The translations under genes were made by a program, and so were the position numbers. Under the pieces are notes generated by a model. It made no database searches, was not told the origin of the DNA, and saw only the letters and a program-made list of their open reading frames with translations. DNA of 64,000 nucleotides from Isoperla grammatica (taxonomy: Eukaryota > Arthropoda > Insecta > Plecoptera > Perlodidae): the NCBI GenBank assembly GCA_945910005.1, contig OX246744.1:46228623-46292622 (forward strand), given 5' to 3'. How positions within the stretch are numbered: the first letter of the stretch is position 1; the number at the start of each line of letters is the position of its first letter. Below, one piece after another: positions 20,322 through 60,418 of the stretch.

Positions 20322-23300
20322 GTAAGAAAGGGGGTGCGCGCGCATCGCGGACTTTAGCGCAGCCTGGATGCCAATAGACCTTTTTCAGAACTGATCTAGA
20401 TCTGCAATGACAACAAGTTACCTAAAAATAACTGGCGCTTAACATTTGGTGGAGCCGGGCATCAAATCACGGCTTTCTAGATCAATTCTGAAAATCATCT
20501 ATAGCACAGGACCCAATTCCAAAAATAGCCATGTTGCCGTGTTTTGTTTCGGACAAACATTGAATGTGCACCAATCAAAGAAAGATACAACAATGGAGTT
20601 GCCTAGCAACATGTTGTTTGTCTGCGTGTTATGTCACAGCCTCCGTAATTGGGTCCTGTGCTATAAGGGGGCTGTGACATCACAGGCGGACAAACAATGT
20701 GTTGCTAGGCAACTCCATTGTCGTATCTTTCTTACATTAGAGCTGTATGTGAGTCTAGAGAAAAGATGTACCACTGCTATTCCAATGTCTTGAGTCTTGT
20801 GCTCCACGACACTAGCGCTGTATGTGAGTCTAGAGAAAAGATGTACCACTACTATTCCAATGTCTTGAGTCTTGTGCTCCACGACACTAGCGCTGTATGT
20901 GAGTCTAGAGAAAAGATGTACCACTGCTATTCCAATGTCTTGAGTCTGGTGCTCCACGACACTAGCGCTGTATGTGAGTCTAGAGAAAAGATGTACCACT
21001 GCTATTCCAATGTCTTGAGTCTTGTGCTCCACGACACTAGCGCTGTATGTGAGTCTAGAGAAAAGATGTACCACTACTATTCCAATGTCTTGAGTCTTGT
21101 GCTCCACGACACTAGCGCTGTATGTGAGTCTAGAGAAAAGATGTACCACTGCTATTCCAATGTCTTGAGTCTTGTGCTCCACGACACTAGCGCTGTATGT
21201 GAGTCTAGAGAAAAGATGTACCACTGCTATTCCAATGTCTTGAGTCTTGTGCTCCACGACACTAGCGCTGTATGTGAGTCTAGAGAAAAGATGTACCACT
21301 ACTATTCCAATGTCTTGAGTCTTGTGCTCCACGACACTCGCGCTGTATGTGAGTCTAGAGAAAAGATGTACCACTGCTATTCTAATGTCTTGAGTCTTGT
21401 GCTCCACGACACTAGCGCTGTATGTGAGTCTAGAGAAAAGATGTACCACTGCTATTCCAATGTCTTGAGTCTTTTCCTCCACGACACTAGCGCTGTATGT
21501 GAGTCTAGAGAAAAGATGTACCACTGCTATTCCAATGTCTTGAGTCTTGTGCTCCACGACACTAGCGCTGTATGTGAGTCTAGAGAAAAGATGTACCACT
21601 GCTATTCTAATGTCTTGAGTCTTGTGCTCCACGACACTAGCGCTGTATGTGAGTCTAGAGAAAAGATGTACCACTGCTATTCTAATGTCTTGAGTCTTGT
21701 GCTCCACGACACTAGCGCTGTATGTGAGTCTAGAGAAAAGATGTACCACTGCTATTCCAATGTCTTGAGTCTTGTGCTCCACGACACTAGCGCTGTATGT
21801 GAGTCTAGAGAAAAGATGTACCACTGCTATTCCAATGGTCGTGGAGCACTGTATGTGAGTCTAGAGAAAAGATGTACCACTGCTATTCCAATGTCTTGAG
21901 TCTTGTGCTCCACGACACTAGCGCTGTATGTGAGTCTAGAGAAAAGATGTACCACTGCTATTCCAATGTCTTGAGTCTTGTGCTCCACGACACTAGCGCT
22001 GTATGTGAGTCTAGAGAAAAGATGTACCACTGCTATTCCAATGTCTTGAGTCTTGTGCTCCACGACACTAGCGCTGTATGTGAGTCTAGAGAAAAGATGT
22101 ACCACTGCTATTCCAATGTCTTGAGTCTTGTGCTCCACGACACTAGCGCTGTACGTGAGTCTAGAGAAAAGATGTACCACTGCTATTCTAATGTCTTGAG
22201 TCGTGTGCTCCACGACACTAGCGCTGTATGTGAGTCTAGAGAAAAGATGTACCACTACTATTCCAATGGTCGTGGAGACCTGTATGTGAGTCTAGAGAAA
22301 AGATGTACCACTACTATTCCAATGTCTTGAGTCTTGTGCTCCACGACACTAGCGCTGTATGTGAGTCTAGAGAAAAGATGTACCACTACTATTCCAATGT
22401 CTTGAGTCTTGTCCTCCACGACACTAGCGCTGTATGTGAGTCTAGAGAAAAGATGTACCACTACTATTCCAATGTCTTGAGTCTTGTGCTCCACGACACT
22501 AGTGCTGTATGTGAGTCTAGAGAAAAGATGTACCACTACTATTCCAATGTCTTGAGTCTTGTGCTCCACGACACTAGCGCTGTATGTGAGTCTAGAGAAA
22601 AGATGTACCACTACTATTCTAATGTCTTGAGTCTTGTGCTCCACGACACTAGCGCTGTATGTGAGTCTAGAGAAAAGATGTACCACTAATATTCTAATGT
22701 CTTGAGTCTTGTGCTCCACGACACTAGCGCTGTATGTGAGTCTAGAGAAAAGATGTACCACTGCTATTCTAATGTCTTGAGTCTTGTCCTCCACGACACT
22801 AGCGCTGTATGTGAGTCTAGAGAAAAGATGTACCACTACTATTCTAATGTCTTGAGTCTTGTCCTCTACGACACTAGGACTGTATGTGAGTCTAGAGAAA
22901 AGATGTACCACTACTATTCCAATGTCTTGAGTCTTGTGCTCCACGACACTAGCGCTGTATGTGAGTCTAGAGAAAAGATGTACCACTACTATTCCAATGT
23001 CTTGAGTCTTGTGCTCCACGACACTAGCGCTGTATGTGAGTCTAGAGAAAAGATGTACCACTACTATTCCAATGTCTTGAGTCTTGTCCTCCACGACACT
23101 AGCGCTGTATGTGAGTCTAGAGAAAAGATGTACCACTACTATTCCAATGTCTTGAGTCTTGTCCTCCACGACACTAGCGCTGTATACGTGAGTCTAGAGA
23201 AAAGATGTACCACTACTATTCCAATGTCTTGAGTCTTGTCCTCCACGACACTAGCGCTGTATGTGAGTCTAGGGAAAAGATGAACCACTGCTATTCCAAT

Positions 23301-35300: not shown

Positions 35301-38300
35301 AGAAAAGATGTACCACTACTATTCCAATGTCTTGAGTCTTGTGCTCCACGACACTAGCGCTGTATGTGAGTCTAGAGAAAAGATGTACCACTACTATTCC
35401 AATGTCTTGAGTCTTGTGCTCCACGACACTAGCGCTGTATGTGAGTCTAGAGAAAAGATGTACCACTACTATTCCAATGTCTTGAGTCTTGTGCTCCACG
35501 ACACTAGCGCTGTATATGTGAGTCTAGAGAAAAGATGTACCACTACTATTCCAATGTCTTGAGTCTTGTGCTCCACGACACTAGCGCTGTATGTGAGTCT
35601 AGAGAAAAGATGTACCACTACTATTCCAATGTCTTGAGTCGTGTGCTCCACGACACTAGCGCTGTATGTGAGTCTAGAGAAAAGATGATCCACTACTATT
35701 CCAATGTCTTGAGTCTTGTGCTCAACGACACTAGCGCTGTATGTGAGTCTAGAGAAAAGATGTACCACTGCTATTCTAATGTCTTTGAAGGTAAGCGAAG
35801 CGCCGACCACCAGGACTCGTTCCTCAACCTCAAGACGCAGGAGGGCGGCGATCCCGGGGGGTCGGCGAAGCAGCTCAAGGCCGTCAACGAGGAGCTTGAC
35901 GAACACAACCAGCGCGCGATACAACTGCGCAACATGGACGTCAAGGTTAGTCAAGGACCCTTGGATAGAAGTTATCACGGACCTCTAGATCAATTCTGAA
36001 AATCGTCTTTTGATAGGTGATTGTGAGTGGATTGGTGGGGGAGCTGGAGCCCGATTCTCTAAACCTGTGGTAAATTTCTCACCGGTTTCTGTCGTTACGG
36101 AAGGCGAATGGATGGCTGTGATTGGGTCACAGCCTTCTCATAACGACCAAAACCGGTGATCACCTTATCGTTGACCATAGAGATTCAAGGCCCTGGTCTA
36201 GTGGTTGGCATCCCTGCTTCCAATACGGTCGCGCGGGTTCGAATCCTGCTTCAGGCAGAAGTTTTTTTATGGATTCAATTCCATCTGACTTATTAGCTTA
36301 GGAATATAAGTATAAACAGTGATTTTGAAGCCGTCGTATTATAGCACAACGAAGCACTCAATAAATTCATTGTTCTGAATCAGCCTTGTTGATTCTGGCA
36401 TTTGTCCGCAGGTGTTCGCGCTGTCCAATCACTGATTCACATATTTCACATATTTAAAATATAAAGATCCCCAGTTGGTTATCGCTCACTCGTCGACGGT
36501 GTTTGGAGCCTACAGGTTCGGCTCAGTCGCTTTAAAGTAAAGTCCCCCACTGAAAATTAGTTATGTAACTGCGTGGATAGACTCTAATTAATATGAATTG
36601 ATCGAAATGCAGTCCACATCCCCCTTTTTCCTACCTTTCCCTTTTCCTCCCCTTCCACTTTTCCTCCCCGCCCTCCTGCGTGCCTCTTTCCTCCAAACAT
36701 CTTCATATTTCATCCACTCATCGTCTCGATTAGCCAAGTTGCAAAAATGTGGGACGTAATTAACCCACATATCAATCGATTTATTTTATTTATTTAAGGT
36801 GGGGCCGCAGGTGGCGGAGGTTGCCAAACTCATTGAGCAGTCGCGCCAAAAGGACGCAAACAACAAGGACCGCGGTAGTCTGGTGTCGGCGGGGGTGGGG
36901 GGCGACGCGTCGCTCGAGCAACGCGTCAACGCGCCGCGCAAGAAGGCCGACAACGAGAACGCGTCGCCGACGCTCGCGAAGGAGGAGCGTACGAAACGCA
37001 GCGCGCATCATCGCCGTCAACGCGGCGACCTCGTGAACGCTACGCGCGACGTTGACGCGACCCTCGATTTGGCGCACTACCTGACGGGCTCGGGGGGCAA
37101 AGAAAACAGCAAGGTCGCCTACAAACCGGTTGTCGACTGGGAGGCCGGCGACCGGGAGCGCTTCCAAGAACTCCAGGCGCATCGTAAACTCAACGAATAC
37201 GGTTTCGACAACGACGCGAATCAGAGAATCGCCGGCAGCAACGCGGAGGGCGGCGAAGCCGACGTGAACAACAATGTCGGCATCGCGGAACCGAGAAGTA
37301 TCTTCGATAGCGGTGGCGAAAAGGAGACCTCGAGCGGTTTGACATCGGCCGACGAGAGTTCTGTGTCGGGCAAAGACAACCCGGCCGCGGACCTCGCGCA
37401 AAGGGGCAAACTGTTCGAGTTGTTGAAGATATCGAAAGACAAGTTCAACAACCCCGAAGCCGCCGGTAACGTGGACGTCGATGGGCGCTCTGCTCTGCTG
37501 CATCACTTGTATAAGAACCAAGACGCCGAAGAGGAACTCGTCAAACAGGTAAATAATCGCTCATATTTATTCCTACATCATTTAGTTGGGTCAAGGGGTG
37601 TTTCTACCATTAATATTTATATTAATAATACAAATTATGTAAGGAAATGGGCGAATTTAAGCAGCAGTGGCTTCTCTTAAATTTTGACCTCATCTAACCT
37701 AGGCTAACCTACAATCTAACATAACCTAGAGAACTGTCACGGCTAACAATGCCGGTACAACACAGAATAGAATGTTTACAAAGTACAATTTAACAAGAAC
37801 AATAGAGTATAAGATTTGAGTAACACACATTTAACAGGATATATAACAGCTAAGGAAAAACATGATTATATCATAACGCCTAGAGAAAGGCTAATTAATT
37901 AATGGCAAATACGACAAAAAATGTTTGGTGATTGCAAACGATATAAAGTTAGTAGTCTATATTATTGCTCATTGAGGGTGTGTTCCAACTTGACGTTTTT
38001 CGTAGTGGACTAAGCTTAGTTATACTAATCGAAAGGAAGTGACGTCACAAGCAGACGACCAATGCTCCTTATTTGGCTAGTGGTTAGTGGTTAGTGGGTA
38101 GTGGTCGAAAGTGTACACTACGACACCGACTAACCCACTAAACCAAGATGGTTGATACCAGCCATCACAGCTGATACTTTTAGGTTAGGAAAGTACCCAA
38201 CCAGTAAGTGGAAGTATTATTATCGTATTTATTTATATTAGATGATTAATAACAATAAACTTTGTATTAGCATACTAGGTGGCGTGCCCAAAGCTGTTAG

Positions 38301-41537: not shown

Positions 41538-41679
41538 GCCCGGTTCCCATGTTTCTACGTCGGACGTTGGCCAATCGTAGCCATTTCCGCCAACGCTGGC
41601 ACTCCCCCTTTCGACGTTCGTCGGGAATACTACGGACAACGGTACGCCAATGTCCGACGTAAGGCCATGGGAACCGGGC
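41538..41679. mobile_element. Small MITE with GCCCGGTTCCCATG ends
   Basis: GCCCGGTTCCCATG (41538) and CATGGGAACCGGGC (ends 41679) are perfect inverted ends, with further inward pairing (CTACGTCGGACGTTGG against CCAATGTCCGACGTAAG). Flanks share AAT, a possible 3-bp target duplication. It lies between the two genes. Confidence 0.75.
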
Positions 41680-42591
41680 AATAGAAAGAATTGCACAGGA
41701 CACTTTTCCCTTATATATTTATTGTAGTACGTTCTTAAAAAAAAATGATATTAATTAAATTATCATTAAACGCAAATGTAGAGCGAGAAAAAATGTCTAC
41801 CCAAAATGAACAAACGCTAACACCCAGTTTACGTTACTCTCATCTTACAATCGTAAGACTACATTACCGACCAACCGACGGTCATTTTCCAAGTGTAAAC
41901 GCTGCACAGTTAGTAAATCAGTCCGTATAGGTCTACCAGAGTACACTTACGGCAGTTAGTATAGTTGCCATCTAAACTTTATCTAAAGAAATATACATAC
42001 AACTCAACTGTTTCGCCTAATACGTGACATATGAATTAAATCAAACCTGTTCCTACGCCAATTAAACAACAACGTAAAAGATAACCTCAATTATATACCA
42101 AGCTCCATCGTCCCGCCATTTGTATTTTTGTAATTGTGTTCAGTATTCCGTGGATCCGTGATGACTGTGTATGAACGCTGGTAGAGTTACGAACGTCAAG
42201 CACCCAGAACCTACCATCGTAACGATGACGGTAACGTAAACGAGTTGTAAGTATCGAGTACGTCGTTAAACAACAAACAATAATATTACAACTACAACTA
42301 CTACTAATACAATTCGGTATCAATCAATGTTCCTACGCGAACAACCTTCGCTGTTAAAGCGCCCTAGATCAATAATCTGATAACAAATGTTCCTATTGAT
42401 TGTACACATTTAAATACAGCTTTAGACTAATCTGAAACTGTGGAATTTCTGGTTAGGTACATTTTAGATTTAAGTTATCTTGCAAACAATAACCTTTGCC
42501 AAAACATGAATACCGATAACAAATAATAAGGATAGAATGTTATCTCGTGGGCTGTATTAGGAGACAGGCCAAAGTATTCTCATACGTGATT

Positions 42592-42667
42592 ATGTTTAAG
42601 TCAGCTGTAGTTGTGTTCGTAGCGGTGTCCCTCATTCACAGGAGTGACGCGACGGGGGTGGGTTATG
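42592..42667 (+). CDS. Gene 2 exon 1 (signal peptide)
   Basis: MFKSAVVVFVAVSLIHRSDA is a typical signal peptide, with cleavage plausible after SDA. The donor TATG|GTAAGT is a strong consensus in phase 1, which fits the acceptor phase of exon 2. The preceding sequence has no in-frame ATG nearby that would be preferred. Confidence 0.75.
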
Positions 42668-45600
42668 GTAAGTACAGTCAGCTCAGTGGTCAATTTGCCC
42701 CCCCCCCCCCCACCACCCTCCTACCCATGCAAGAGGTTAGAGAGATAATGAAGTGCAATTTTTTTAGTTTTCAGCACAGATTTGTAAGACTTTTATGTAA
42801 AAAAAAAAAAAAAAAAAAAACAGTTTTCCGTTAAAAAACATTGTTTTTTACTTCTCTTTTACTGATTTAACAGAAATAACTCTTGTATTATTAATTATTA
42901 TAGTGTATCAGTGCTTAATTGCTTAATTTCAGGGCGGACGCGTCCGACCACTTCTTTAATTGAAAAATCCCAACAAAAAAATCTTAAAAATCCTGTGGGA
43001 GTAATTTGCTCGAGTACGGCGGCTGTTTATGTGGTGAGGTTAGGCTAGGTTAGGATATGTTAGGTAAGGTTAGGTTAGGTTAGGTTTTTTCGGCAACTGT
43101 TTGTCGTAGAGCAAACCAGACCGTATCCCGCACTCGTTATTCTCTAACAAGGAACAAATTTGTTTGGGAGATATTCTGTCGGGAGTAGCTTACGGGAGTA
43201 ACTAGCGGGAATAACTTGCAGGATTAACTTGCGGGAGTAACTTGCGTGTGTAACTCGCGGGTGTAACTTGCGGGTTAACTTGCGGGAGTAGCATGTGGGT
43301 GTAACTTGCGGGAGTAACTTTCGGGAGTAACTTGCGGAAGTAACTTGCGGGAGTAGCTTGCGGGTGTAACTTGCGGGAGTAACTTGCGGGTGTAACTTGC
43401 GGGAGTAACATGTGGGTGTAACTTGCGGGAGTAACTTTCGGGAGTAACTTGGTACAGTAGCTTGCGGGAGTAACATGCGGGAGTGACTTGCGGGAGTAAC
43501 TTGCGGGAGTAGCTTGCGGGAGTGACTTGCGGGAGTAACTTGCGGGAGTAACTTGGTGGAGTAACTTGCGGGAATAACTTGTGGAAGTAGCTTGCGGGAG
43601 TAACTTGCGGGAGTAACTTACGGGAGTAACTTGCTCGGGCATATACTGCGGCCGTGTATGTGGCAAACAAGTGACAAGAAAAATGTATGTTTATTGCATA
43701 AAACGAGACATGACGCCCCTCGTCCCCCCCCCCTTCACCCCTCCAAGAGTTGCCATACGTCCCGCTTGCAGGACAGTCCTGATATTGAATTTTAGTTCCC
43801 GCGTCCAATGTTGCGACATCTAATTTACAATATCAGGTATCTGCAGCCCAAAACATGCTCAGTTATCAACAGCCAAGTAGTTCTCGTCAATGTTCCAATT
43901 CATTTTGGTGGTTTCCTGGTTTTTGGTTTACATCTCCTCACTAGAGAAGTGACGTCACTCTGACTGTACGTCACATATTGTCAGAATGTACCAAACATGA
44001 TGTGTTGAAAACACAATTAAAGCTTTCCCCGTTGTATGAAGAACTTTTGTCATACGAGAATTGTGATAAACTTTTAAAATTACTTGTCCGCACACAGTTT
44101 TTCCAACAATTTTAAATACAACCAATTATAAATATAAAATAATATAAATTAAATTCATATAAAATTAAAACATAATTACTACTTTCATAGTTACTTGATT
44201 ACTTAGCTTGCAAAACACTATCTTGGTGGCGCAAAATGACCTAACTGGTTGAAGCGCCCTTAAACCCAATAAATTCAAAATTCAAAAAATAAATTCAAAT
44301 TGGTTTACAAAAACGACGATATTTCGGTTCCATTCAGTCCGGTATTTTTTTCCGAAACGCCCAGAAAGCACTCTAAAAGCCCGATTTAAACATTTTCTCC
44401 TGCGGTGCTATTGTTGGGGTCACCGCCCCTACCTAACCAAACCCCCCGTGCTTTCTTTGTCCCGATAAGATATCTCCCCGAGTGTCAAACCTGGCAACCC
44501 CCCTCCCCCCCCCCCCCTCCGATGAAGAAGATTGGCGAACGTCCGCCCACTTATTATTTTAGAATTTAAGCTTTAGTGGTACTTGTTCGCTTAGCCAATA
44601 AGTAATCAGATTTAGATGTTATGACTTACGAATCGCTATAATTTGACGTGTACAAATAAAAAGTACCGTATTAAAAAAGTACCGGTACGGCGCCCCGGCT
44701 CACTTTCATCACCGGGTCAGTATACATCTCTAACATGATATTTACAACATTGCTGCGAGATGGTAAAACTTCTCACTTTTTTGGAACAAATCTGATGCCT
44801 CAATATGAATTCCAACCTAGTAGCAAGCAGTGTGCAGGGGTCTCCAAACTCCGTGTCATAATACAGATAGTTTAACACATCAAAGGGTGGTTGAGTTCGC
44901 GTGTAAGACCCCCCCCCCCCCCCCCCCCCCGCCCCACTAACAACTACTGATAATGGCAAGTAATTATGGCAAATACCAAGGGTGGAAGTATTGAGAACTC
45001 AAACTAACACATAGATAGCGCTGCTAAGCAACCTCCTTGTAGCACCATAATATGGTCGCATTTGTTTATCTACAACAATGACTGTGTATATGACAATATG
45101 GCCGCCAACAATGTCCGTGGCGTCACGTAAAGATCAATAATAATTGACAGCAAAACTCCTCCTCACAAGAGTTTATTTTCTTGTCACCCGAATGCATCTA
45201 TCTAGTCCCCCCCTCCTACGTCACTGCTGATGGCCGTGCTAAGGATATATATGTATTGCGCCATGCAGGTCTCCTCAACAAGACTAAAGGATGCTGGGAT
45301 CTGGGCGTGACGCTGCAGGTGTCCTCTCTAGTGACGTCACCAACACCTCGGCAGCTGGAAGTGTCTTGGTTCAACGCCCGCCCGCTAGAGGGGGACTACG
45401 TGGGACTCTATTATCACGATCCACTGGAGTGAGTCAAAACAAATAAATAAATAATAATTAGTGTGACTCAATCGCAGCAATTGCCTTATTTCTGAGGAGA
45501 ACCTCGGAAAAAGCCTCCAGCGAGGATTGCTGGTAGCGGGTATCGAACTGGCGACCTCCCGAATGAGAGCCTCGTGTGCTACGCACTGAGCCATCGCTAT

Positions 45601-48600
45601 CGGTGACACGAATACGAGGTTTCGTACAGTAGGTGAACAAGTATCTTAGAATTACATACGCTGTCGTTCTTTCAGATAGCTTTCCACACCCCTGTTTCAA
45701 GTGCGTCTCTCCATCTTTCAGAGAGTTTTATACAGCTCAGTTTTAAGCGCGTCTCTCTATTTTTTAGAGAGCTTTCCACACCCCTGTTTTTAAGTGCGTC
45801 TCTCTATCTTTCAGAGAGCTTTATACACCCCTGTTTCAAGCGCGTCTCTCTATTTACTAGAGAGCTTTGTACACCCCTGTTTAAAGTGCGTCTCTCTATC
45901 TTTCAGAGAGCTTTATACACCCCTGTTTCAAGCGCGTCTCTCTATTTTTTAGAGAGCTTTGTACACCTCTGTTTCAAGTGCGTCTCTCCATCTTTCAGAG
46001 AGCTTTATACACCCCTGTTTCAAGCGCGTCTCTCTATTTTTTAGAGAGCTTTGTACACCTCTGTTTCAAGTGCGTCTCTCTATCTTTCAGAGAGCTTTAT
46101 ACACCCCTGTTTCAAGCGCGTCTCTCTATTTTTTAGAGAGCTTTGTACACCTCTGTTTCAAGTGCGTCTCTCCATCTTTCAGAGAGTTTTATACACCCCT
46201 GTTTCAAGCGCGTCTCTCTATTTTTTAGAGAGCTTTGTACACCCCTGTTAAAAGTACGTCTCTCTATCTTTCAGAGAGCTTTTTACACCCCTGTTTCAAG
46301 TGCATCCCTCCATCTTTCAGAGAGTTTTCTACACCCCTGTTTCAAGCGCGTCTCTCTATATTTTAGAGAGCTTTGTACACCCCTGTTTAAAGTACGTCTC
46401 TCTATCTTTCAGAGAGTTTTCTACACCCCTGTTTCAAGCGCGTCTCTCTATTTTTTAGAGAGCTTTCCACACCCCTGTTTCAAGTGCATCCCTCCATCTT
46501 TCAGAGAGTTTTCTACACCCCTGTTTCAACTGCGTCTCTCTATCTTTCAGAGAGCTTTGTACACCCCTGTTCCAAGCGAACGTCAGCACGGAGTCCGGCA
46601 ACAATCTGACGAATGTCCAGGCTCCAACTATTGCGTCCGAAGATTTGGGCTACTCTGCTCTCTGTTTGGGGTACTGGGCAGCTTACGTCAGCCAGGGGGT
46701 GGTACTGGGTGAGTGAGGTGACCAGACGTACCGGTTTGACCGGTACCGGTACAGTACCGTTATCGGAACACTTGTACCGGTGTCCCGAGAGATTCATTGA
46801 AAACACGTATTTATACCGATTTGTAATTCTTGGGGAAAAGAATGTCCCGGTATTCTGTCAATAAAGAAAACGCGGTCGATTGTAACAGTGGTGGGTGGGG
46901 GGAGAGGGGGGACTTACAGTTGCTAACACATGTGGGTCGCATTCGCAGACGCTGACTCACACAATCACGCACTCACTCAACTCCCAGGCAGTAGAGTTTA
47001 ATCCGTCAACAGGCGGCTGGCGAAATACGTTTATGCATTACATGACTACAAAAATGTACCCACATTCATTTAAATACTTAATGTGTATTAATTAAAATTA
47101 ATATGAATAATAATGTATTGATATTTATTTTGTTTTACTAATTCATGTTAGAAAACTGTTTTACGGGGATTTTCACGCAAATTTGAATTAAAAATGTTTT
47201 GCCTCTTTCGACTGACCAGACCCCGTGCTTGTCCATGGAGTTCGTAATCCTTACACTTTGTTGGTCGCGGTTTTCAATATTCAAAATATAGTCACCCTCG
47301 CCGTATGGGTGAGTTGAGTTGCAATACTACGTATACAATGTGTTTGGCCTAGAGTCAAACGAAATCCGTGGTACGTATAAATGAGATGGGCCTCATAACG
47401 TTTTCAAAACAGTTTTTAGTTAGATTTATTTGCAGGTAGTAGGCCCTACTGCCCATGCTAAGGTAACAGTTTCGAGTTCCAAAATAAAATCTCGGAGTCG
47501 CAAAATATGAAAGCGTCAAAATTCATACATCTGCAATAAATGAATCAGTATGAGTGTTTAACTCTAACCCCCGGGGTCCTTCCTTGCTCATGTTTCAGCG
47601 TCCGACTGTCTCAGGACACTTCCCACGTGGATGCGCGACATGAAGGGACAGTTAAGGGACATGACTCTCAAGGACATGTTGTGTTACAGCGTCCGACTGT
47701 CTCAGGACACTTCCCACGTGGATGCGCGACATGAAGGGACAGTTGGGGGACATGACTCTGAAGGACATGTTCTTGCCTGGGACACACAACTCGGCCTCGT
47801 ACAAGAAGTATTCGGGCAGTGGAGGCGAAGATATCGTCTCTAAATACACCTTCACACAGGTGAGCAGTGGCGGCTCGTGACGTCAACCCCCCCCCCCCCC
47901 CCCCATTCAACCACAATCACTCACTTTCACGGCTTGTGTTATAGTTGTGTTTGAAATATGCACATTCGACTAACAATAAAAGCGCACGGTAAGACATGAG
48001 CGCTGGTTCGATTCTCTCATATCTCTTGTATTTTAATTTTCCAAGACTTCTTCCCTAAAAATCCAGATTTCTCCTTCTTCAGTCCTTTTGCTCTTCTACC
48101 TCTTGACTGTCCTGGTCTTCAGTTCCAACCCTTCGGACCCTTTATCTAGCACTTATCTTTTATTGACAAAGATTGTGTGTATATATATATGTATATATAG
48201 TACTTAAATGTAGGGTTGGTATCATATGCATTATTAGTATCATGTACAGCCTACTGTGTTGTTTTATTTATGGTTTTGTAAAGGGTACCTACGTTACGAA
48301 ACGCAATGTAATTTAACTTATGCTTCCATGTATTATTCTTTAGAATATATTATGTAATAGTAATGTTCTAGGAAGAGAACGTGCTAGGCCAACTGATCTA
48401 CGGCATCAGATACGTGGACATGCGTATAGGCTACTACCACACCCTGGCAGAACCTTGGTGGACCTTCCACGGGCGCAGAACTCATCCACTGAGCGATGTA
48501 TTGGAACAGTTCCGGTCATTTATCGACCACACCGAGGAGATTGTCATTCTAGACATTCAGGAGTTCAACGGTAGGGCATACTAGACATACAGGAGTTCGA

Positions 48601-51600
48601 CGGTAGGGCATACTAGACATACGGGAGTTCAACGGTAGGGCATTCTAGACATTCAGGAGTTCAACGGTAGGGCATTCTAGACATTCAGGAGTTCGACGGT
48701 AGGGCATACTAGACACAGGAGTTCAACGGTAGGGCATACTAGACATACGGGAGTTCAACGGTAGGGCATTCTAGACATTCAGGAGTTCAACGGTAGGGCA
48801 TACTAGACATTCAGGAGTTCAACGGTAGGGCATTCTAGACATTCAGGAGTTCAACGGTAGGGCATTCTAGACATTCAGGAGTTCGACGGTAGGGCATACT
48901 AGACACAGGAGTTCAACGGTAGGGCATACTAGACATACAGGAGTTCAACGGTAGGGCATACTAGACATACAGGAGTTCAACGGTAGGGCATTCTAGACAT
49001 TCAGGAGTTCGACGGTAGGGCATACTAGACACAGGAGTTCAACGGTAGGGCATACTAGACATACGGGAGTTCAACGGTAGGGCATTCTAGACATTCAGGA
49101 GTTCAACGGTAGGGCATACTAGACATTCAGGAGTTCAACGGTAGGGCATTCTAGACATTCAGGAGTTCAACGGTAGGGCATTCTAGACATTCAGGAGTTC
49201 GACGGTAGGGCATACTAGACACAGGAGTTCAACGGTAGGGCATACTAGACATACAGGAGTTCAACGGTAGGGCATACTAGACATACAGGAGTTCAACGGT
49301 AGGGCATACTAGACACAGGAGTTCAACGGTAGGGCATACTAGACATTCAGGAGTTCAACGGTAGGGCATTCTAGACATTCAGGAGTTCAACGGTAGGGCA
49401 TTCTAGACATTCAGGAGTTCGACGGTAGGGCATTCTAGACATTCAGGAGTTCAACGGTAGGGCATTCTAGACATTCAGGAGTTCAACGGTAGGGCATTCT
49501 AGACATTCAGGAGTTCGACGGTAGGGCATACTATAGACACAGGAGTTCAACGGTAGGGCATACTAGACATACAGGAGTTCAACGGTAGGGCATACTAGAC
49601 ATACAGGAGTTCAACGGTAGGGCATACTAGACATACAGGAGTTCAACGGTAGGGCATACTAGACATTCAGGAGTTCAACGGTAGGGCATACAAGACATAC
49701 AGGAGTTCAACGGTAGGGCATACTAGACATACAGGAGTTCAACGGTAGGGCATTCTAGACATTCAGGAGTTCGACGGTAGGGCATACTAGACACAGGAGT
49801 TCAACGGTAGGGCATACTAGACATACAGGAGTTCAACGGTAGGGCATACTAGACATACAGGAGTTCAACGGTAGGGCAAACTAGACATACAGGAGTTCAA
49901 CGGTAGGGCATACTAGACATACAGGAGTTCAACGGTAGGACATACTAGACATACAGGAGTTCAACGGTAGGGCATACTAGACATACAGGAGTTCAACGGT
50001 AGGGCATACTAGACATACAGGAGTTCAACGGTAGGACATACTAGACATACAGGAGATCAACGGTAGGGCAAACTAGACATACAGGAGATCAACGGTATGG
50101 CATACTGGACATACAGGAGATCAACGGTAGGGCATACTAGACATACAGGAGTTCAACGGTAGGGCATACTAGACATACAGGAGTTCAACGGTAGGGCATA
50201 CTAGACATACAGGAGTTCAACGGTAGGGCATACTAGACATACAGGAGTTCAACGGTAGGGCATACTAGACATACAGGAGTTCAACGGTAGGGCATACTAG
50301 ACATACAGGAGTTCAACGGTAGGGCATACTAACCATACAGGAGATCAACGGTAGGGCAAACTAGACATACAGGAGATCAACGGTATGGCATACTGGACAT
50401 ACAGGAGTTCAACGGTAGGGCATACTAGACATACAGGAGATCAACGGTATGGCATACTGGACATACAGGAGTTCAACGGTAGGGCATACTGGACATACAG
50501 GAGTTCAACAGTAGGGCATACTAGACATACAGGAGTTCAACGGTAGGGCATACTAGACATACAGGAGTTCAACGGTAGGGCATACTAACCATACAGGAGA
50601 TCAACGGTAGGGCAAACTAGACATACAGGAGATCAACGGTATGGCATACTGGACATACAGGAGATCAACGGTAGGGCATACTAGACATACAGGAGTTCAA
50701 CGGTAGGGCATACTAGACATACAGGAGTTCAACGGTAGGGCATACTAGACATACAGGAGTTCAACGGTAGGGCATACTAGACATACAGGAGTTCAACGGT
50801 AGGGCATACTAGACATACAGGAGTTCAACGGTAGGGCATACTAGACATACAGGAGTTCAACGGTAGGGCATACTAACCATACAGGAGATCAACGGTAGGG
50901 CATACTAGACATACAGGAGATCAACGGTATGGCATACTGGACATACAGGAGTTCAACGGTAGGGCATACTAGACATACAGGAGTTCAACGGTAGGGCATA
51001 CTAGACATACAGGAGTTCAACGGTAGGGCATACTAGACATACAGGAGTTCAACGGTAGGGCATACTAGACATACAGGAGTTCAACGGTAGGGCATACTAA
51101 CCATACAGGAGATCAACGGTAGGGCATACTGGACATACAGGAGTTCAACGGTAGGGCATACTAGACATACAGGAGTTCAACGGTAGGGCATACTAGACAT
51201 ACAGGAGTTCAACGGTAGGGCATACTAGACATACAGGAGTTCAACGGTAGGGCATACTAGACATACAGGAGTTCAACGGTAGGGCATACTAGACATACAG
51301 GAGTTCAACGGTAGGGCATACTAACCATACAGGAGATCAACGGTAGGGCAAACTAGACATACAGGAGATCAACGGTATGGCATACTGGACATACAGGAGT
51401 TCAACGGTAGGGCATACTAGACATACAGGAGATCAACGGTATGGCATACTGGACATACAGGAGTTCAACGGTAGGGCATACTGGACATACAGGAGTTCAA
51501 CAGTAGGGCATACTAGACATACAGGAGTTCAATGGTAGGGCATACTAGACATAGGCCCTACAGGAGTTCAACGGTTAGACATACTAGACATACAGGAGAT

Positions 51601-54600
51601 CAACGGTAAGACACACTAGACATACAGGAGTTTAATGGTAGGGCATACTAGACATAGGCCCTACAGGAGTTCAACGGTAGGGCATACTAGACATAGGCCC
51701 TACAGGAGTTCAACGGTTAGACATACTAGACATACAGGAGTTCAATGGTATGGCATACTAGACATACAGGAGTTCAACGATAAGACATACTAGACATACA
51801 CGAGTTCAATGGTAGGGCATACTAGACATACAGGAGTTTAATGGTAGGGCATACTAGACATACATGAGTTCAACGGTAAGACACACTAGACATACAGGAG
51901 TTCAATGGTAGGGCATACTAGTGTGACATATATGGAAGGCGGATAGGGTTGGATCTAGGAAGCCTGGTAAAAAGAAGAAGTGGTTTTAGAAAAGAAAGAT
52001 TGTTGGGTATTGTTGAGAGATGTTACTATGGTTGAGAAAAATAACAAGATAAAAAAACTTGGTGTTGTTTAAAAAGTTGACAGGGAAGGACTGGTTTTGT
52101 GTGTGGGACGTGCACGACAGCTGCTTCGGGACATCGAAACAGGCCTGTTTCGAAGTGCGACGGTTGTTCGTGAGGTAAACGTCAAGCCAGCAACGAGTAA
52201 GTAATGCAATATCGACTGAGCTAGTAATATAAAATAATAATTTGTCTACTTGAGATACCGGGCTAGACAGTATTTGACAATTTGGCGCTCCAACGTGTAG
52301 GGCTCGGTCTACTACAACGACCGAGATGGTAGATGTCTGTCCATAGGCTTAGATCAATATTAGGCTAGAGAAGTTTGTCTAGGGAATGTGTTACCAAATT
52401 TTAGTTAAATCAGTAAGATCAGATTCGAGATTGTCCATAGGTTGATACGTATGATTGTGTGAATGTATGAATAGACTAGTGGAGGTTCAAGAAAATTTGG
52501 AGTAGCAATTGGAGTGGTTAAAGTATGGAGAGGGAGCTTGATGATATTGAAGGAAGTGAATATGAGGGGTTAAGAGTGGAGAGGGAGCTTGATGATATTG
52601 AAGGGAGCTTGATGATGGATGGACCAGATGAGGATGGGGATCTCAAGAGCATGATAAGGAATTTAATGAGGATGCAAGTAGGTGTGACAGCCAAGATTAT
52701 GGAGATGAAGAAAGGGCAGGATGAACAAGCTAGGGCTTTGGAAGAGATGAAGAGGAATATGGTTAAACAGGTAGATATGGAGAAGATGATGGGAGACATG
52801 ACCGCGGAAATGAAAACGATATTTTTGGTAAAGCAGGTGGATGTAGGAGATGTAAAGAAAGAAAAAGATTTGAGAAGCGTAGGAGAGGTAGGAAGTGGAA
52901 AAATAGATGTTGTGAAAGAGATTGTTGAAGAGCAAGTAGGCTGGTTGGATAATAAGGAAGATGTGGAGATAGTTGAGAAGCAAGGTGACAAGTTTGATGA
53001 TAAGCAAGATGTGGAGAAAGTTGAGGAGCTAGATGAGATGAGGTTTGATAAGAAAGACGTGGTTGTTACAGAGCAACAGATAGATAAAGTGGTGGATAAA
53101 TATGTGGAGATAGATGAGGAGTACAAGGATGCTGTGGTTGGTGAGGAAAATTATGATTTGACTGTAGGGCAGAAAGATGATTCCAGGGTCAATAATGAGA
53201 GGGAGTGGGTTTGTTATGAGAAAGAATGGATGATGGTAGGAAGAGACTGGAGTAAGTTTAGAGGTGGAACTGTTGAAACTCTCGTAAAGGTAGGCCTATG
53301 GTAAAAAAAAAAAAAAAAAAATTTCGGGGATGTTAATTTGAAACCGTACAAAATGTTTATGGAATAAACTTGTTCTGTATGTGTTGGTGGATTTCATGTT
53401 GGTAGTAATGTGGTTAAATGTTTGTTTCGTTGCTGTATTGTGATCGGCCGACATTTTGTCTTGGGTTCGATGTTCTTTTGGTTGCCATAGGTATGTTTTT
53501 TTTCCATTTTTGGGGAACGAAATTCAAATTGCGACAAAAAATTAAAAAAACATGGGGGGTAATTGTCGTAATAGCGTTGTCATAAAATTGTCGTAATAGC
53601 GTTGTCGTAATAGTGTTGTCGTAATAGCGTTGTCATAATAGGGTTGTCATAATGTTGTCGAGAAGTTGATGATACCAGTGGTATAAATAAGTTAAAAAAA
53701 AAAAAAGATTTTTTTTAATTCACTGAGTGGTGGTTTTTTTTGTCAAAAGGAATGTGGTGGGTCACATTGCCTGTGATACATTATCTGCAATATGCAGAAG
53801 AAAAAAAAAAAGAATTTTTTAAATTCACTGGGTGGATTTTTTTTGTCTAAAGGATTGTTGCATAATATAGTAAGTCAGACATTGTTGGGAATTACAGAGT
53901 GGCATTGTTGAGGTATTGTCAAACTTTGACCATAGTTGGAGTGTTGATGAGGTGGTCAGTATGAATGGAGGATATATTCGTTTAGGGGATGGTCATTTGG
54001 GGTATAATTATTTCTATATTTATCGTTAAAATGACAAATATAAGAAATAGGGGGGTAATTGTGACATATATGGAAGGCGGATAGGGTTGGATCTAGGAAG
54101 CCTGGTAAAAAGAAGAAGTGGTTTTAGAAAAGAAAGATTGTTGGGTATTGTTGAGAGATGTTACTATGGTTGAGAAAAATAACAAGATAAAAAAACTTGG
54201 TGTTGTTTAAAAAGTTGACAGGGGAGGACTGGTTTTGTGTGTGGGACGTGCACGACAGCTGCTTCGGGACATCGAAACAGGCCTGTTTCGAAGTGCGACG
54301 GTTGTTCGTGAGGTAAACGTCAAGCCAGCAACGAGTAAGTAATGCAATATCGACTGAGCTAGTAATATAAAATAATAATTTGTCTACTTGAGATACCGGG
54401 CTAGACAGTATTTGACACTAGCTATACAGGAGTTCAACGGTAGGTCATATTGACTTACAGGAGATCAACGGTAGGTCATACTAGACTTACAGGAGTTCAA
54501 CGGTAAGACATACTAGACATACAGGAGTTCAATGGTAGGGCATACTAGACATACATTGAGTGGCGTAGGAATAGCCCGGGCAGCCCGGGGGCCCGTGGTC

Positions 54601-57600: not shown

Positions 57601-60418
57601 ATCTTTGGCATGCAGTTAACAATAAGGGTTGGTATTTGGTTCCGACTGCAGTCGGGCGACTAATCCCAGCGCCCAGGCTGCAAATCGCCCGAGCGGAATA
57701 AGTCTGTATGTCTTTCCTCGGGCTCAGCAACCCTTCTGCCAAAATAACTACATACTTTCGAACTTCAAATTCCAGGACGAGACACCCCAAATCTGCCGAT
57801 TTTCATTAATAAGCCTGAGCGCGCCTAGGTCGCAAAAACTTAAGTGTGGCTGGGCTAAGCCCAGGCTGAAAAACACTAGCCTGGGCGGCGCCCAGGCCCG
57901 CCCAGGCCCGACTACAGCCCTGGTTATATAAGAGTTTTAGAATGAGTTTAGGTGGTTTGTTGTAAGGGATAATTTAACCAGAAGAAAATCATTCAATTTA
58001 CTGCACTGATGGTATAAATTTGACTTATTAGAAGTATGTTGGCATTGTAGTATAATTATTTCCTTCTATAAGTTACATTGACAAATTTGATGCAACGAAA
58101 TGTTGGTTTTGCGTGAACCTACATATTTTGGAGAATTAAATCTGGTAATTCGGGGGGGGGGGGGGGGGGGGGGCTCCCAGAGTACACACTACACACCCAC
58201 ATCATACATGTCTAGAGGAGCTATACTTGTGTGCCCAGGGTTCGGGGTCGGGCTGGAGGTGCACGAAGCGCTGGTGTCCTATCTTGTAGAGGAGTTGGGA
58301 GGCTACTTCGCCCCGACGTCGCTGACATGGGAGGCGTCGCTCAACGACATCTGGGCGTCGGGACGCCGGCTGATCGTGACGTACGATGATGACAGGGTCA
58401 GTGTTCTTATTGGTCGAGGCTGTTGGCCAATGATGTCCCTTGACTCATTAGTCCTTGACATCAGTCTCACTGGTTTTTAAACACTAGCGCAAATCTTTCC
58501 CTTCTGGGCATTTTTTGCCACTACTTTGCTATAACTGGTATGATATGACTTATGCAATTAATTCAAAAAAGACACGTGTAAAAAGTAGAAAAAATTGATA
58601 TTTTTAAATGTCACGAACATGTATGAATTCTAATTAATTCTTCCAGAATTGCAATAGGCCTAATTGCAAACAAATATAATAATGTTTCAGGAAGTATAAT
58701 CTTCGTCTTCACCTAGTTTGTTGGAAAAGTACATTTCTCTTAATACTTTTAAAGTATTCAAAATCAAAAATAACAAAATGCCAATTTTTAATTTTGAAAG
58801 TGTATTTTTATATAAAACCTATTTCTAGATTATGAACTTGAACAATTGACAAAAGATGTTGGTGTACATGTAAAACCGGAGACTGTTGAAACCGTTATAA
58901 AACGAAGCACTAAGTAGGCCATACATTTTATAAAGTTCACATCATGATAATCAGTTCTATGTGCTACTGAGTGGGTAGCATATAAATACACATTTATGTA
59001 TTTAGGTGTCCTACGGAAGCGACATATTATGGCGGGCGGTGCAACATCGTTGGGGCAACGTACAGACATTGGACGACTTGTACAAGTACTTGGCGGGAGC
59101 CATAGTCACGTGAGTTAACCTCCTTCTGCATCCTGATACACTGGTAGCAAACAATCCCCCCTCGCATTCACCATAGTGTCTATGGGAGTACAAGTACTTG
59201 GAGGGAGCCATAGTCACGTGAGTTAACCTCCTTCTGCATCCTGATACACTGGTAGCAAACAATCCTCCCTCGCATTTACCACACACGTACTTATCAGGCG
59301 GGAGCCATAGTCACGTGAGTTAACCTTCTTCTGCATCCTGATACACTGGTAGCAAACAATCCTCCCTCGCATTCACCATAGTGTCTATGGGAGTACAAGT
59401 ACTTGGCGGGAGCCATAGTCACGTGAGTTAACCTCCTTCTGCATCCTGATACACTGGTAGCAAACAATCCTCCCTCGCATTTACCATAGTGCCTATGGGA
59501 GTACAAGCAAAGATTGTAATCTTTGGTACAAGTACTTGGCGGGAGCCATAGTCACGTGAGTTAACCTCCTTCTGCATCCTGATACACTGGTAGCAAACAA
59601 TCCTCCCTCGCATTTACCATAGTGTCTATGGGAGTACAAGTACTTGGCGGGAGCCATAGTCATGCGAGTCTGTCTGTCTGTCTGTCCCTGATATATTCGA
59701 GGTCGGTATGCGACTACACTTACCTCGACTGTGCATTCCGCCCTCAGTGTCTGTGATGTGTTACAGGCCGCCGGGTAATCGCCCTCACGCCCTCATGGCG
59801 GAACTAACGGCCACCGCACTGGGCACAATCACAGACCACCTGGGCGGGCTGAGAAACATGGCGGACACGGTCAACAGAAACGTCTCGATGTGGTTTAGAG
59901 GCGCTTGGGGTGAGTGAGGGCAGTGGATCTTGGTTCGACTCCCAGTGTTTAACGCAGATAACTTGAAACGTGTCACAAGTTTTTTGTTCGAATCTTTGAA
60001 TCGACATTCGCTTTTAATAATCCAGGGCTCGGTATAATCAATATCCCTTCAGATAATCTTATAAGGACTAAGAAAAAGAATTATTTAATAGGAAACTTCA
60101 TAAAGATTAGTTAGTAAAGGAAATACCTCCATAGGCAACCTGCTTCCCTTGGTAGCCCTAACTACTGAAATCACGTGGTACACTAATTTGCTATGATAGT
60201 CGATACAGAACATAATTTCTTTATCTTCTCTGGCTAAGAAATGTTGATGAAAGAAGGTATCTTTAGTAACCTGACTCTGGTTTATTGCAGGCGAGACTGT
60301 GAACGTGGTGGCTGCAGACTTCTTCAGGGGCACCGCCATCATAGAAGAGTCCATTGCTTGGAACCTGCGTCGCGCCGCGCACATGTCATGCCCCCCCTCC
60401 CCCCCCCTTCAGCACTAG
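42592..60418 (+). CDS. Gene 2: secreted PI-PLC X-domain protein, nine exons
   Basis: Join of 42592-42667, 45206-45428, 46551-46708, 47690-47859, 48372-48570, 58239-58396, 59006-59109, 59767-59909 and 60291-60418: 1,359 nt, 452 residues plus TAG, phase-consistent at all eight junctions. The X domain begins after an N-terminal beta-rich region (VSWFNARPLEGDYVGLYYHD) typical of insect/arthropod PI-PLC-X proteins. Conserved blocks are LRTLPTWM, DMFLPGTHNSASY (His185), YGIRYVDMRIGYY (Arg222, Asp225, Arg227), WTFHGRR (His242), VILDIQEFNGFG and QHRWGNVQTLDDLYKYL. Both histidines of the PI-PLC acid-base mechanism are present, so phospholipase activity is possible. An N-terminal signal peptide and NxS/T sites (NKT, NVS, NLT) point to the secretory route. 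There is no Y, C2 or EF-hand domain, as expected for the X-only class. Substrate and biological role are not known from sequence. Confidence 0.88.
43033..43087. repeat. Interstitial TTAGG-like run
   Basis: GGTTAGG units, with an uninterrupted AAGGTTAGGTTAGGTTAGG, match the arthropod telomere motif (TTAGG)n. It is short, degenerate and internal. A degenerate reverse version (CTAACCTAGGCTAACC) is at about 37694. Confidence 0.6.
43186..43636. repeat. 15-bp minisatellite in gene 2 intron 1
   Basis: Tandem units around TTGCGGGAGTAAC (period 15) with variants GCGGGTGTAAC and TTTCGGGAG. The in-frame period gives long minus-strand frames of low complexity that are not genes. It shares the CGGGA core with the blocks at 8.2 and 13.9 kb but has a different period. 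Confidence 0.85.
43637..45000. other. Gene 2 intron 1, remainder
   Basis: Mostly featureless. Contains C-rich tracts at about 44504-44518 and a run of 22 C at 44909-44930. No exon-like sequence was recognised. Confidence 0.5.
45206..45428 (+). CDS. Gene 2 exon 2
   Basis: Acceptor GCATCTATCTAG|TCCCCC and donor CTGGA|GTGAGT, phase 1 to 2. Encodes PPSYVTADGRAKDIYVL, GCWDLGVTLQVSSL and the LEVSWFNARPLEGDYVGLYY block found ahead of the X domain in secreted arthropod homologues. Sequence 5' of the acceptor resembles that preceding gene 1 exon A. Confidence 0.8.
45532..45602 (-). repeat. tRNA-like SINE head (minus)
   Basis: The minus strand reads GATGGCTCAGTGCGTAGCAC (box A) and GCCAGTTCGATACCCGCTAC (box B) at tRNA spacing, followed by a body rich in CTTTTTCCGAGG. 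A tRNA-derived SINE inserted in gene 2 intron 2 just upstream of the 46-bp array. A related, more decayed head is at 3850-3925. Confidence 0.65.
45672..46578 (+). repeat. 46-bp array duplicating the exon 3 acceptor
   Basis: About 19 units alternating two types: GCGTCTCTCTATCTTTCAG|AGAGCTTT and GCGTCTCTCTATTTTTTAG|AGAGCTTT, each followed by (G/A)TACACCCCTGTTTCAAG. Every unit contains a pyrimidine tract plus AG and the first 27 bp of exon 3. The last acceptor (46550) is the one joined to unique coding sequence. Confidence 0.92.
46551..46708 (+). CDS. Gene 2 exon 3
   Basis: Acceptor CTATCTTTCAG|AGAGCTT and donor GTACTGG|GTGAGT, phase 2 to 1. Encodes ELCTPLFQANVSTESGNNLT and GYSALCLGYWAAYVSQGVVL. 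The start of the exon is the last unit of the 46-bp array. The chosen acceptor is the only nearby one that gives the correct phase from exon 2 and reads into YWAAYVSQGVVLASDCLRTL. Confidence 0.75.
47599..47689 (+). repeat. 91-bp duplication of exon 4 acceptor and start
   Basis: 47599-47689 and the first 84 bp of exon 4 (from 47690) are near-identical, each preceded by an AG acceptor (CATGTTTCAG and TTGTGTTACAG). Use of the first acceptor adds 91 nt (1 mod 3) and shifts the frame before the PGTHNS motif. The second is therefore required for a functional protein. Confidence 0.88.
47690..47859 (+). CDS. Gene 2 exon 4 (catalytic His185)
   Basis: Acceptor GTTACAG|CGTCCG, donor ACACAG|GTGAGC, phase 1 to 0. 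Encodes SDCLRTLPTWMRDMKGQLGD and DMFLPGTHNSASYKKYS. His185 of PGTH is the expected first catalytic histidine of the PI-PLC X domain. Asn186 follows it where many relatives have Asp. Confidence 0.85.
47860..48371. other. Gene 2 intron 4
   Basis: Starts with the donor GTGAGC, then a run of 18 C (47887-47904). Otherwise AT-rich with a short (TA)n at about 48180. Nothing else was seen. Confidence 0.6.
48372..48570 (+). CDS. Gene 2 exon 5 (Arg222, Asp225, Arg227, His242)
   Basis: Acceptor ATGTTCTAG|GAAGAG, donor TTCAACG|GTAGGG, phase 0 to 1. Encodes GQLIYGIRYVDMRIGYYHTL, AEPWWTFHGRRTH and EEIVILDIQEFN. The RYVDMR and second catalytic His of WTFHG are intact. The last 24 bp of the exon are the first unit of the 32-bp array. 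Confidence 0.87.
48547..51921 (+). repeat. 32-bp array duplicating the exon 5 donor, about 105 copies
   Basis: Consensus halves CTAGACATACAGGAGTTCAA and CGGTAGGGCATA. The first copy spans the exon end and the donor (CAACG|GTAGGG), so every unit repeats 24 bp of exon plus a GT site. Variants: 28-bp units (CTAGACACAGGAG), GAGATCAACGG, GGTATGGC, TACTAACCATAC and TACTGGACATAC. The last three recur in fixed order in blocks of several units, a higher-order pattern. The array is split by the LTR element and resumes at 54422-54556. Confidence 0.95.
51922..52279 (+). repeat. 5' LTR
   Basis: 358 bp, TG...CA ends, nearly identical to the 3' LTR. Contains CTTCGGGACATCGAAACAGG with a small palindromic CGAAACAGGCCTGTTTCG. 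Confidence 0.9.
52525..53304 (+). CDS. ORF of the LTR element (gag-like candidate, coiled-coil)
   Basis: 259 residues starting MERELDDIEGSEYEGLR, immediately repeated as VERELDDIEG. Strongly charged, E/K/D-rich and predicted by eye to be helical (KIMEMKKGQDEQARALEEMK). It has no CCHC knuckle, protease or RT motifs. An aromatic end (EWMMVGRDWSKFRGGTVE) precedes TAA and a poly-A run. It may be a reduced gag or a protein unique to this family. Function unknown. Confidence 0.55.
   Translation: MERELDDIEGSEYEGLRVERELDDIEGSLMMDGPDEDGDLKSMIRNLMRMQVGVTAKIMEMKKGQDEQARALEEMKRNMVKQVDMEKMMGDMTAEMKTIFLVKQVDVGDVKKEKDLRSVGEVGSGKIDVVKEIVEEQVGWLDNKEDVEIVEKQGDKFDDKQDVEKVEELDEMRFDKKDVVVTEQQIDKVVDKYVEIDEEYKDAVVGEENYDLTVGQKDDSRVNNEREWVCYEKEWMMVGRDWSKFRGGTVETLVKVGLW
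54060..54417 (+). repeat. 3' LTR
   Basis: 358 bp, one substitution seen relative to the 5' LTR, followed by the CTAG target duplication. Confidence 0.9.
54422..54556 (+). repeat. Remainder of the 32-bp array after the LTR insertion
   Basis: About four diverged units (GGAGTTCAACGGTAGGTCAT, GAGATCAACGG) continue the array split by the LTR element. Confidence 0.85.
54947..55368. mobile_element. MITE with GCGGCCTTTACACG ends
   Basis: GCGGCCTTTACACGTACACT at 54947 is matched in inverted form by AGTGTACGTGTAAAGGCCGC ending 55368, flanked by TA on both sides (54945-54946, 55369-55370). The interior is CpG-rich with internal copies of GTAAAACTGTCCGTGT (about 55007 and 55097) and GGGAAAGAACGTCG. No transposase. 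In gene 2 intron 5. Confidence 0.8.
55482..55628. mobile_element. 147-bp palindromic MITE, copy 2
   Basis: Same length and ends as 39133-39279 (GGTTGGAATTCATAGTCGGC ... GACTATGAATTCTAACC), with the asymmetric centre (ACAACTGTTTCC) in the opposite orientation. No clear target duplication at this copy. Confidence 0.8.
55629..56769. other. Gene 2 intron 5, unassigned
   Basis: Contains an open frame from 55889 with a short exon-like start (YLVDDVTGEVIGDLKEAAAS) that was not recognised, and a run of 22 G at 56389-56410. Nothing else could be assigned. Confidence 0.45.
56770..57298 (-). pseudogene. hAT/TTF-type zinc-finger transposase-like remnant
   Basis: Minus-strand pieces in changing frames. 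First MFYKPKRKGEETDNSKITSY; then DVWTGEQWAERREKHKWLDA and KGGFLGCVKR; then, after a stop-containing gap, SLRSKISAHQKSTTHIEAER. The order Trp-rich WxxxQW/KWL, GFLGC and KISAHxxSxxHIxA matches the TTF-type zinc-finger region of hAT transposases and their domesticated relatives. Frameshifts and the missing catalytic part indicate a dead copy. The LINE family is excluded by the motif set. Confidence 0.5.
57299..58238. other. Gene 2 intron 5, last part
   Basis: AT-rich. Contains short G/C repeats around 57830-57915 (CCCAGGC iterations) and a run of 22 G at 58152-58173, 65 bp before exon 6. No gene was seen. Confidence 0.5.
58239..58396 (+). CDS. Gene 2 exon 6
   Basis: Acceptor GTGTGCCCAG|GGTTCG, donor GACAGG|GTCAGT, phase 1 to 0. 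Encodes GFGVGLEVHEALVSYLVEEL, then LTWEASLNDIWASGRRLIVT and YDDDR, the second half of the X domain. It joins VILDIQEFN to GFG without frame change over a 9.7-kb intron. Confidence 0.82.
59006..59109 (+). CDS. Gene 2 exon 7
   Basis: Acceptor TGTATTTAG|GTGTCC, donor GTCAC|GTGAGT, phase 0 to 2. Encodes VSYGSDILWRAVQHRWGNVQ and TLDDLYKYLAGAIVT. The last 29 bp and the donor are the first unit of the 107-bp array. Confidence 0.82.
59081..59664 (+). repeat. About 107-bp array duplicating the exon 7 donor, six copies
   Basis: Units start TACAAGTACTTGGCGGGAGC (29 bp of exon), continue CATAGTCAC|GTGAGTTAACC and end with CCATAGTGTCTATGGGAG. Copies at about 59081, 59190, 59287, 59395, 59529 and 59638. 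The third has a variant start and the fifth is preceded by an insertion. The sixth ends CATAGTCATGCGAG and has lost the GT donor. Confidence 0.92.
59767..59909 (+). CDS. Gene 2 exon 8
   Basis: Acceptor GTGTTACAG|GCCGCC, donor GCTTGGG|GTGAGT, phase 2 to 1. Encodes PPGNRPHALMAELTATALGT and NRNVSMWFRGAWG. Confidence 0.82.
60291..60418 (+). CDS. Gene 2 exon 9 (terminal)
   Basis: Acceptor GTTTATTGCAG|GCGAGA, phase 1, stop TAG 60416-60418. Encodes GETVNVVAADFFRGTAIIEE and SIAWNLRRAAHMSCPPSPPL, the usual C-terminal NVVAADFF-type block of the family, followed by a short proline-rich end. Confidence 0.82.

Follow-up and report, generated by a model that had tools for sequence, protein, structure and literature searches.

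Tandem arrays spanning exon-intron junctions recur across gene families in an insect-like genome

We analysed a window of 64,000 nucleotides (C14:46228623-46292622) in an insect-like genome assembly of 874 Mb and 603 contigs; its contig measures 46.8 Mb and ends about 0.5 Mb away. Two adjacent genes in this window carry tandem arrays that appear to be anchored on splice junctions. This raises the question of whether the repeat units really include a splice site together with the end of the neighbouring exon and, if so, whether tandem duplication starts preferentially at such junctions, as the original prediction held, or whether the junction is merely a place where duplications are tolerated.

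The answer depends in the first place on correct exon borders. Gene 2, on the plus strand, consists of nine exons and is PI-PLC-X-like, a label taken from the names of its homologues; a Pfam search of its protein at E 0.01 gave no domain match. Exon 1 (42592..42667) was placed by its open reading frame and GT, exon 3 (46551..46708) begins within the final copy of a 46-bp array, and exon 4 (47690..47859) has its working acceptor placed in the second copy of a duplication. The borders of exon 4, and likewise those of exons 2 (45269..45428), 5 (48372..48570), 6 (58239..58396), 7 (59006..59109), 8 (59767..59909) and 9, which includes the stop codon (60291..60418), rest on frame and homologues. Joined at these borders, the exons give a single 431-residue reading frame. 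The earlier view that the copy beside the unique exon stays coding is right. We aligned this frame with eight of 27 listed homologues (P0001-P0005, P0010, P0013 and P0014), including seven named arthropods. Among these eight, support is good for exons 3 to 9 and weak for exon 1/2, a poorly conserved N-terminus, while exon 2/3 is variable in length. At exon 3/4 one homologue has an insertion and the stretch before the junction is missing from another; at exon 4/5 one homologue has an insertion. Exons 5 to 9 align without a break apart from exon 5/6, where gene 2 is one residue shorter than its homologues. The best named matches are mostly insects (Timema and Ampulex for gene 2, Anabrus and Zootermopsis among the top matches for the NOP2 gene described below), none of them close to identity.

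Four arrays of gene 2, all on the plus strand, have a unit that takes in a splice site along with the end of the exon beside it, according to TRF, direct reading and lag comparison; in the latter, each repeated segment crosses from intron through AG or GT into exon. The 46-bp array (45668..46576, 19.7 copies by TRF) includes the acceptor of exon 3 (TCTTTCAG) together with some 25-28 bp of that exon, AG being present in 18 of 18 scored units. At exon 4, a 91-bp duplication (47591..47771, 2.0 copies by TRF) comprises 8 bp of intron with the acceptor and 83 bp of exon. The 32-bp array (48545..51921, 105.2 copies by TRF) contains 26 bp of the exon 5 end and the donor GTAGGG, whose G is found in 96 and T in all of 97 scored units; TRF detects a continuation of 4.4 copies (54418..54555) beyond an LTR element. 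The array at exon 7 (59080..59660) has six copies of about 108 bp, spaced by 108, 97, 108, 133 and 108 bases, with 30 bp of the exon 7 end and the donor GTGAGT; its GT is missing in the sixth copy. It is always the exon-proximal copy that joins the unique exon, the last one at acceptors and the first one at donors. With borders backed by homologues, the anatomy originally proposed for these four arrays holds. Splice sites kept in the copies are nevertheless no proof of their use, because many other positions are equally invariant.

In two arrays almost every scored copy retains its splice signals, which would speak for a mobile or introner-like element, or for a regulatory device that uses multiple splice sites. 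The units, however, differ in both sequence and length, and what is exonic in each of them is simply the exon of the host gene itself. Dispersed copies are absent for the 32-bp unit, the one unit searched genome-wide: a 24-base exact pattern derived from it has 45 matches, 45 of 45 within its own array. The arrays are thus several unrelated sequences and not one element, as had been proposed, and we consider an element or a regulatory device very improbable.

The LTR retroelement that interrupts the 32-bp array (51922..54417, no strand assigned, CTAG at both sides) has 358-bp LTRs at 51922 and 54060 with a mismatch at one of 358 positions; it is young-looking and holds a 260-aa reading frame. 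The original prediction overlooked this element, and also the lost GT in the sixth exon 7 copy. Intron 1 of gene 2 contains telomere-like GGTTA repeats (43033-43086) and a 13-bp array of 35 copies (43180-43634), both away from junctions. Elsewhere in the window we noted (ATGT) repeated 108.5 times with 98% matches (1026-1459) and a repeat of about 167 bp with (AT)n inside (1991-3041).

The position of the four arrays was compared with chance. When units of the observed periods were placed randomly on the array-collapsed gene, 0.49 spanning units were expected among the seven arrays of gene 2, and four were seen; the probability of at least four of seven, 3e-4, is a post hoc value for a gene picked for its pattern. 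Gene 1 fits less well. Its 75-bp satellite (20734..35785, plus strand, 199.8 copies by TRF) occupies the intron between exons A and B and does adjoin the exon B acceptor, stopping five bases before exon B (35791..35945, plus strand, placed by frame continuity only), but the exon lies outside the unit. Lag comparison therefore rules this satellite out as a spanning array, and of the original claim only the adjacency stands. Exon A of the same gene (window positions 15335-20377) is an open frame of 1680 codons that consists largely of in-frame tandem arrays with periods of 18, 21, 42, 48, 81 and 147.

Another complete gene was found in the 40 kb left of the window, which had been obtained before its genes were known. 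It is NOP2, encoded on the minus strand and matching Pfam PF01189 at E 2.9e-70, and is modelled with ten exons and 18 junctions; its exon 3 is an acidic stretch without a homologue match, and the match of exon 2 is weak. Arrays of 143 bp (19 copies) and 101 bp (six copies in addition to the exon) span the donors of exons 4 and 6, respectively, and one of 80 bp (2.8 copies) spans the acceptor of exon 10; a 115-bp partial duplication, absent from the TRF output, lies across the exon 5 acceptor. Two further arrays are intron-only (73 bp, 2.1 copies; 19 bp, 23.2 copies). Three of five TRF arrays thus span a junction (P 0.01), or four of six with the partial duplication included (P 0.002), values that are partly post hoc since NOP2 was examined for its coding-like array flanks. 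The same 40 kb also hold a further gene, presumably clathrin light chain-like by its motif, with exons placed by eye at 25.2-28.5 kb of the joined sequence. It has no listed array of period at least 10 in its span and stands outside the counts.

Pooling the three complete genes, we found that seven of ten arrays with a period of at least 19 span a junction, where 1.1 are expected (P 1e-5); without gene 2 the figure is three of six (P 0.02). Excluded from this pooled test are arrays with a period below 19 and those that lie within the LTR element or exon A of gene 1; the two 101-bp NOP2 rows are merged, as are the 61- and 143-bp NOP2 rows. Tolerance of duplications at junctions does not by itself predict the preponderance of spanning over intron-only arrays seen in complete genes. 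The counts favour a mutational bias, by which tandem duplications would begin preferentially at or near exon ends and junction arrays would be in true excess over intron arrays, for example owing to exons being GC-rich islands or to break repair linked to transcription. Against this must be set that two of the pooled genes drew attention through their arrays and that all three share one subtelomeric region.

Sequences not chosen for their exons bear on the same point. We took 16 ten-kb windows, eight near the original one and eight at arbitrary places; arrays of period at least 10 make up 12.6% of the 160 kb thus sampled. Among the 24 arrays tested (score at least 150, period 25-250), seven have a coding-like 90-bp flank at the exon-median threshold, as against 2.3 by permutation (3 of 1000), again in favour of a mutational bias. 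The support weakens at three other thresholds, where the observed array count was reached in 51, 27 and 19 of 1000 permutations, and one of the seven flanks (L011 95-215) falls within a neighbouring array. Inspected by eye, five of these seven arrays include an acceptor or donor in their unit, one of them in an arbitrary far window (L023), and L015 is ambiguous. An array outside the seven (L014 638) has an acceptor in its unit as well, again by eye. Also in L014, a 61-bp array (274-576) lies over the stop codon of a minus-strand exon, with a separate 104-bp array at the acceptor of that exon; by eye, both of its ends were duplicated independently.

A third set of data was centred on exons and taken irrespective of repeats. 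Family searches found 50 TCP-1 matches, 85 myosin head matches and 132 kinesin rows, of which 70 were used, the rest being mostly repeated fragments on contig C15. The sample, drawn in contig order with a final myosin batch from C13 and C14, consists of 87 stretches (67.7 kb) with 110 match entries and 207 edges, some of which may be domain ends rather than junctions; it covers 48 of 50 TCP-1, 38 of 85 myosin and 21 of 70 kinesin matches. Its flanks of 230-260 bp are too short to reveal intron-only arrays with long units, and most intron interiors lie outside it. Two repeated families came to light in the searches. On C15, 33 rows match a kinesin-head fragment that stops near model position 94, several of them in inverted pairs about 2.1 kb apart; they have the look of a mobile or ampliconic family of a single contig. 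Along a gene at C1:33475044-33479396 there are six copies of one myosin-head stretch (model positions ~378-435), which we take to resemble alternative exons of muscle myosin heavy chain.

Eight TRF arrays with a score of at least 150 were present in the sample, and seven of them cover an exon edge (7/87 stretches, 7/207 edges). One belongs to TCP-1 (L031, 71 bp, a CCT donor), one to myosin (L066, 155 bp, an acceptor) and five to kinesin, two of these within one gene (L085, 95 bp; L086, 158 bp; L094, 138 bp; L099, 132 bp; L101, 45 bp). The L101 array spans by only about five exonic bases, and that of L094 extends into L114 with 21 further copies. Partial-copy matches of L066 and L094 had been merged with their exon prior to the edge count. 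The eighth array (L089) stops about 18 bp upstream of an acceptor. Nine weaker arrays (scores 51-69), seven intronic, two within exons and none on an edge, were left out. Two more arrays (L112, 152 bp, seven copies; L113, 161 bp, 1.9 copies) were spotted in match tables and fetched on purpose, and stand outside the 7/207. Downstream of the kinesin donor array, L114 holds a 245-bp array at 4418-4999, where this stretch ends.

Junction arrays therefore occur in PI-PLC-X-like, CCT, myosin, kinesin and NOP2 genes. Taken together, the seven of 87 exon-centred stretches, NOP2 and the five of seven coding-flank arrays identified by eye confirm that the pattern recurs, and junction arrays are common in this genome.

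Whether junctions are also enriched is less clear. Seven spanning arrays compare with 0.9-1.3 expected from the far windows (P at most 5e-4, on a baseline of only 3 to 10 arrays) and with 2.3-2.7 from all 16 windows (P 0.009-0.02), and both comparisons speak for a mutational bias. From the near windows, however, 3.7-4.0 are expected (P 0.08-0.12), and a truncation-aware test of the exon-centred sample gave P 0.16, because flanks of 230-260 bp cannot show long-unit intron-only arrays. In terms of bases, arrays cover 3.4% of exon edges (7/207), which is below random positions (5-8% in far and 15% in near windows); pseudo-window coverage had means of 10.9-30.3 against the observed 7, a value attained by at least 48 and up to all 60 of 60 runs. 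The evidence for array enrichment at junctions is thus suggestive, and a true excess of junction arrays is likely near the window and only tentative for the whole genome. We give a mutational bias slightly less than an even chance. The original claim that duplication starts preferentially at junctions is favoured by array counts and opposed by base coverage, the near baseline and the truncation-aware test; that splice junctions act as genuine hotspots where tandem duplications arise in this genome seems to us a tentative proposition, somewhat more doubtful than probable. Were it true, junction minisatellites would be a major class of genic tandem repeats here and would keep duplicated splice sites permanently available for intron sliding and intron gain.

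Spanning arrays could also come to be in excess through persistence, with no mutational bias at work. Duplications would arise anywhere, arrays tied to a selected exon copy would be re-seeded and stay recognisable longer, and intron-only arrays would decay or be deleted. The anchored-copy anatomy would lead one to predict this. It leaves unexplained, however, the young-looking junction arrays. Several are nearly identical among their copies, identity in the two- to three-copy arrays being 1.0 in L086, 0.99 in L066 and 1.0 at NOP2 exon 10. We regard persistence as rather unlikely.

The lengths of the units point to the fate of the extra copies. Only four of 20 junction-array periods are divisible by 3, as against six of six in the arrays of gene 1 exon A (Fisher P 9e-4); once five cases selected by eye or obtained deliberately are set aside, the proportion is four of 15 (P 0.004). 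Compared with a chance of one in three, the junction periods alone give P 0.15, so that only the contrast with exonic arrays differs. In gene 2, none of the periods of 46, 91 and 32 bp is divisible by 3, and the exon 7 copies are unevenly spaced (108, 97, 108, 133 and 108 bases); these arrays do not fit coding minisatellites. Splicing probably removes the extra copies, since so few junction periods are multiples of 3. On these genomic data, extra junction copies are probably absent from mRNA and exonic copies translated, which fits the period contrast. Alternatively, some extra copies could be in use, given their retained splice sites.

Ends of the duplications were also inspected for filler or microhomology as a signature of break repair. 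Automatic calls suggested unmatched sequence of 7-45 bp between copies in 8 of 14 cases. In L086, however, part of the apparent filler seems to be homologous to a flank that has suffered a deletion, and the calls were unreliable for L023, PLC exon 3 and NOP2 exon 5; this line was dropped.

In our opinion, these arrays are quite probably minisatellites of the type named mirages in amphioxus, that is, local tandem duplications in which the unit chances to include a splice site and the end of the exon next to it. The safest mechanism, and the one we prefer, is tolerance combined with a single copy that is anchored and conserved. A genome rich in tandem arrays would supply the raw duplications. 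The copy touching the unique remainder of the exon would go on supplying coding sequence and a functional splice site, and the remaining copies, being inside the intron, would be removed by splicing. Purifying selection would then fix one copy and leave those on the intron side free to expand and contract; slippage, unequal exchange or gene conversion may homogenise them, leading to anything from 2 to more than 100 copies. Exon-only duplications would be removed unless tolerated in frame, and junction-spanning ones would therefore be the surviving coding-adjacent duplications.

No described class of such arrays was known to the original prediction. This does not hold: as far as the accessible text of the sources goes, they have been named mirages in amphioxus (PMC3087553), and boundary repeats are described in human duplicated genes (PMC2812944). 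Mirages, traced to Canestro 2002 as cited in PMC3087553, are minisatellite-like tandem duplications across the intron-exon boundary at 3' and 5' sites, known from Adh3, the globins BflGb6 and BflGb9, PGBD5 and TnC (PMC3087553, PMC3902484). In the accessible parts of the same two articles, units measure 10-160 bp, many but not all copies retain AG/GT, globin and PGBD5 mirages have 3-7 copies, and normal splicing is backed by RT-PCR. The PGBD5 mirages are of 60 and 108 bp (PMC3902484), and a role as a route to intron gain has been proposed (PMC3087553). Under that name, they are reported from amphioxus only in what is accessible of PMC3087553 and PMC3902484, and the literature searched (titles and abstract starts, most subscription journals being outside reach) contained no report of insect mirages.

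Two other systems are related more distantly, again judging by the accessible text. Human segmental duplications contain internal minisatellites, with units of on average 30 bp over all variable repeats, some of which lie at exon-intron boundaries like the arrays described here; unlike them, the human repeats are associated with new introns and with alternative splicing among recent paralogues (PMC2812944). Intron gain via tandem duplication of proto-splice sites is the subject of Rogers 1989, as cited in PMC3087553, and near intron pairs of Drosophila are treated under the same process (PMC2891723). Tandem duplication around a splice or proto-splice site is common to that process and to our arrays, but there it creates a new intron, whereas here the junction of an existing intron is spanned.

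With mirages the likeness is much closer. The host exon-intron boundary lies inside the unit, at acceptors (exons 3 and 4) as well as donors (exons 5 and 7) of gene 2; units of 32-161 bp are found, and in the two scored arrays AG is kept in 18/18 and GT in 96-97/97 copies. Normal splicing, supported by RT-PCR in amphioxus, is here predicted from genomic sequence, with the period contrast as indirect support. In contrast to amphioxus, so far as those mirages are described in the accessible text, our arrays come from an insect-like genome, reach up to ~110 copies, occur four to one gene and affect several gene families. The same anatomy in several gene families of such a genome suggests a class wider than amphioxus, and the present arrays are of the same kind as mirages, with more copies and several in one gene.
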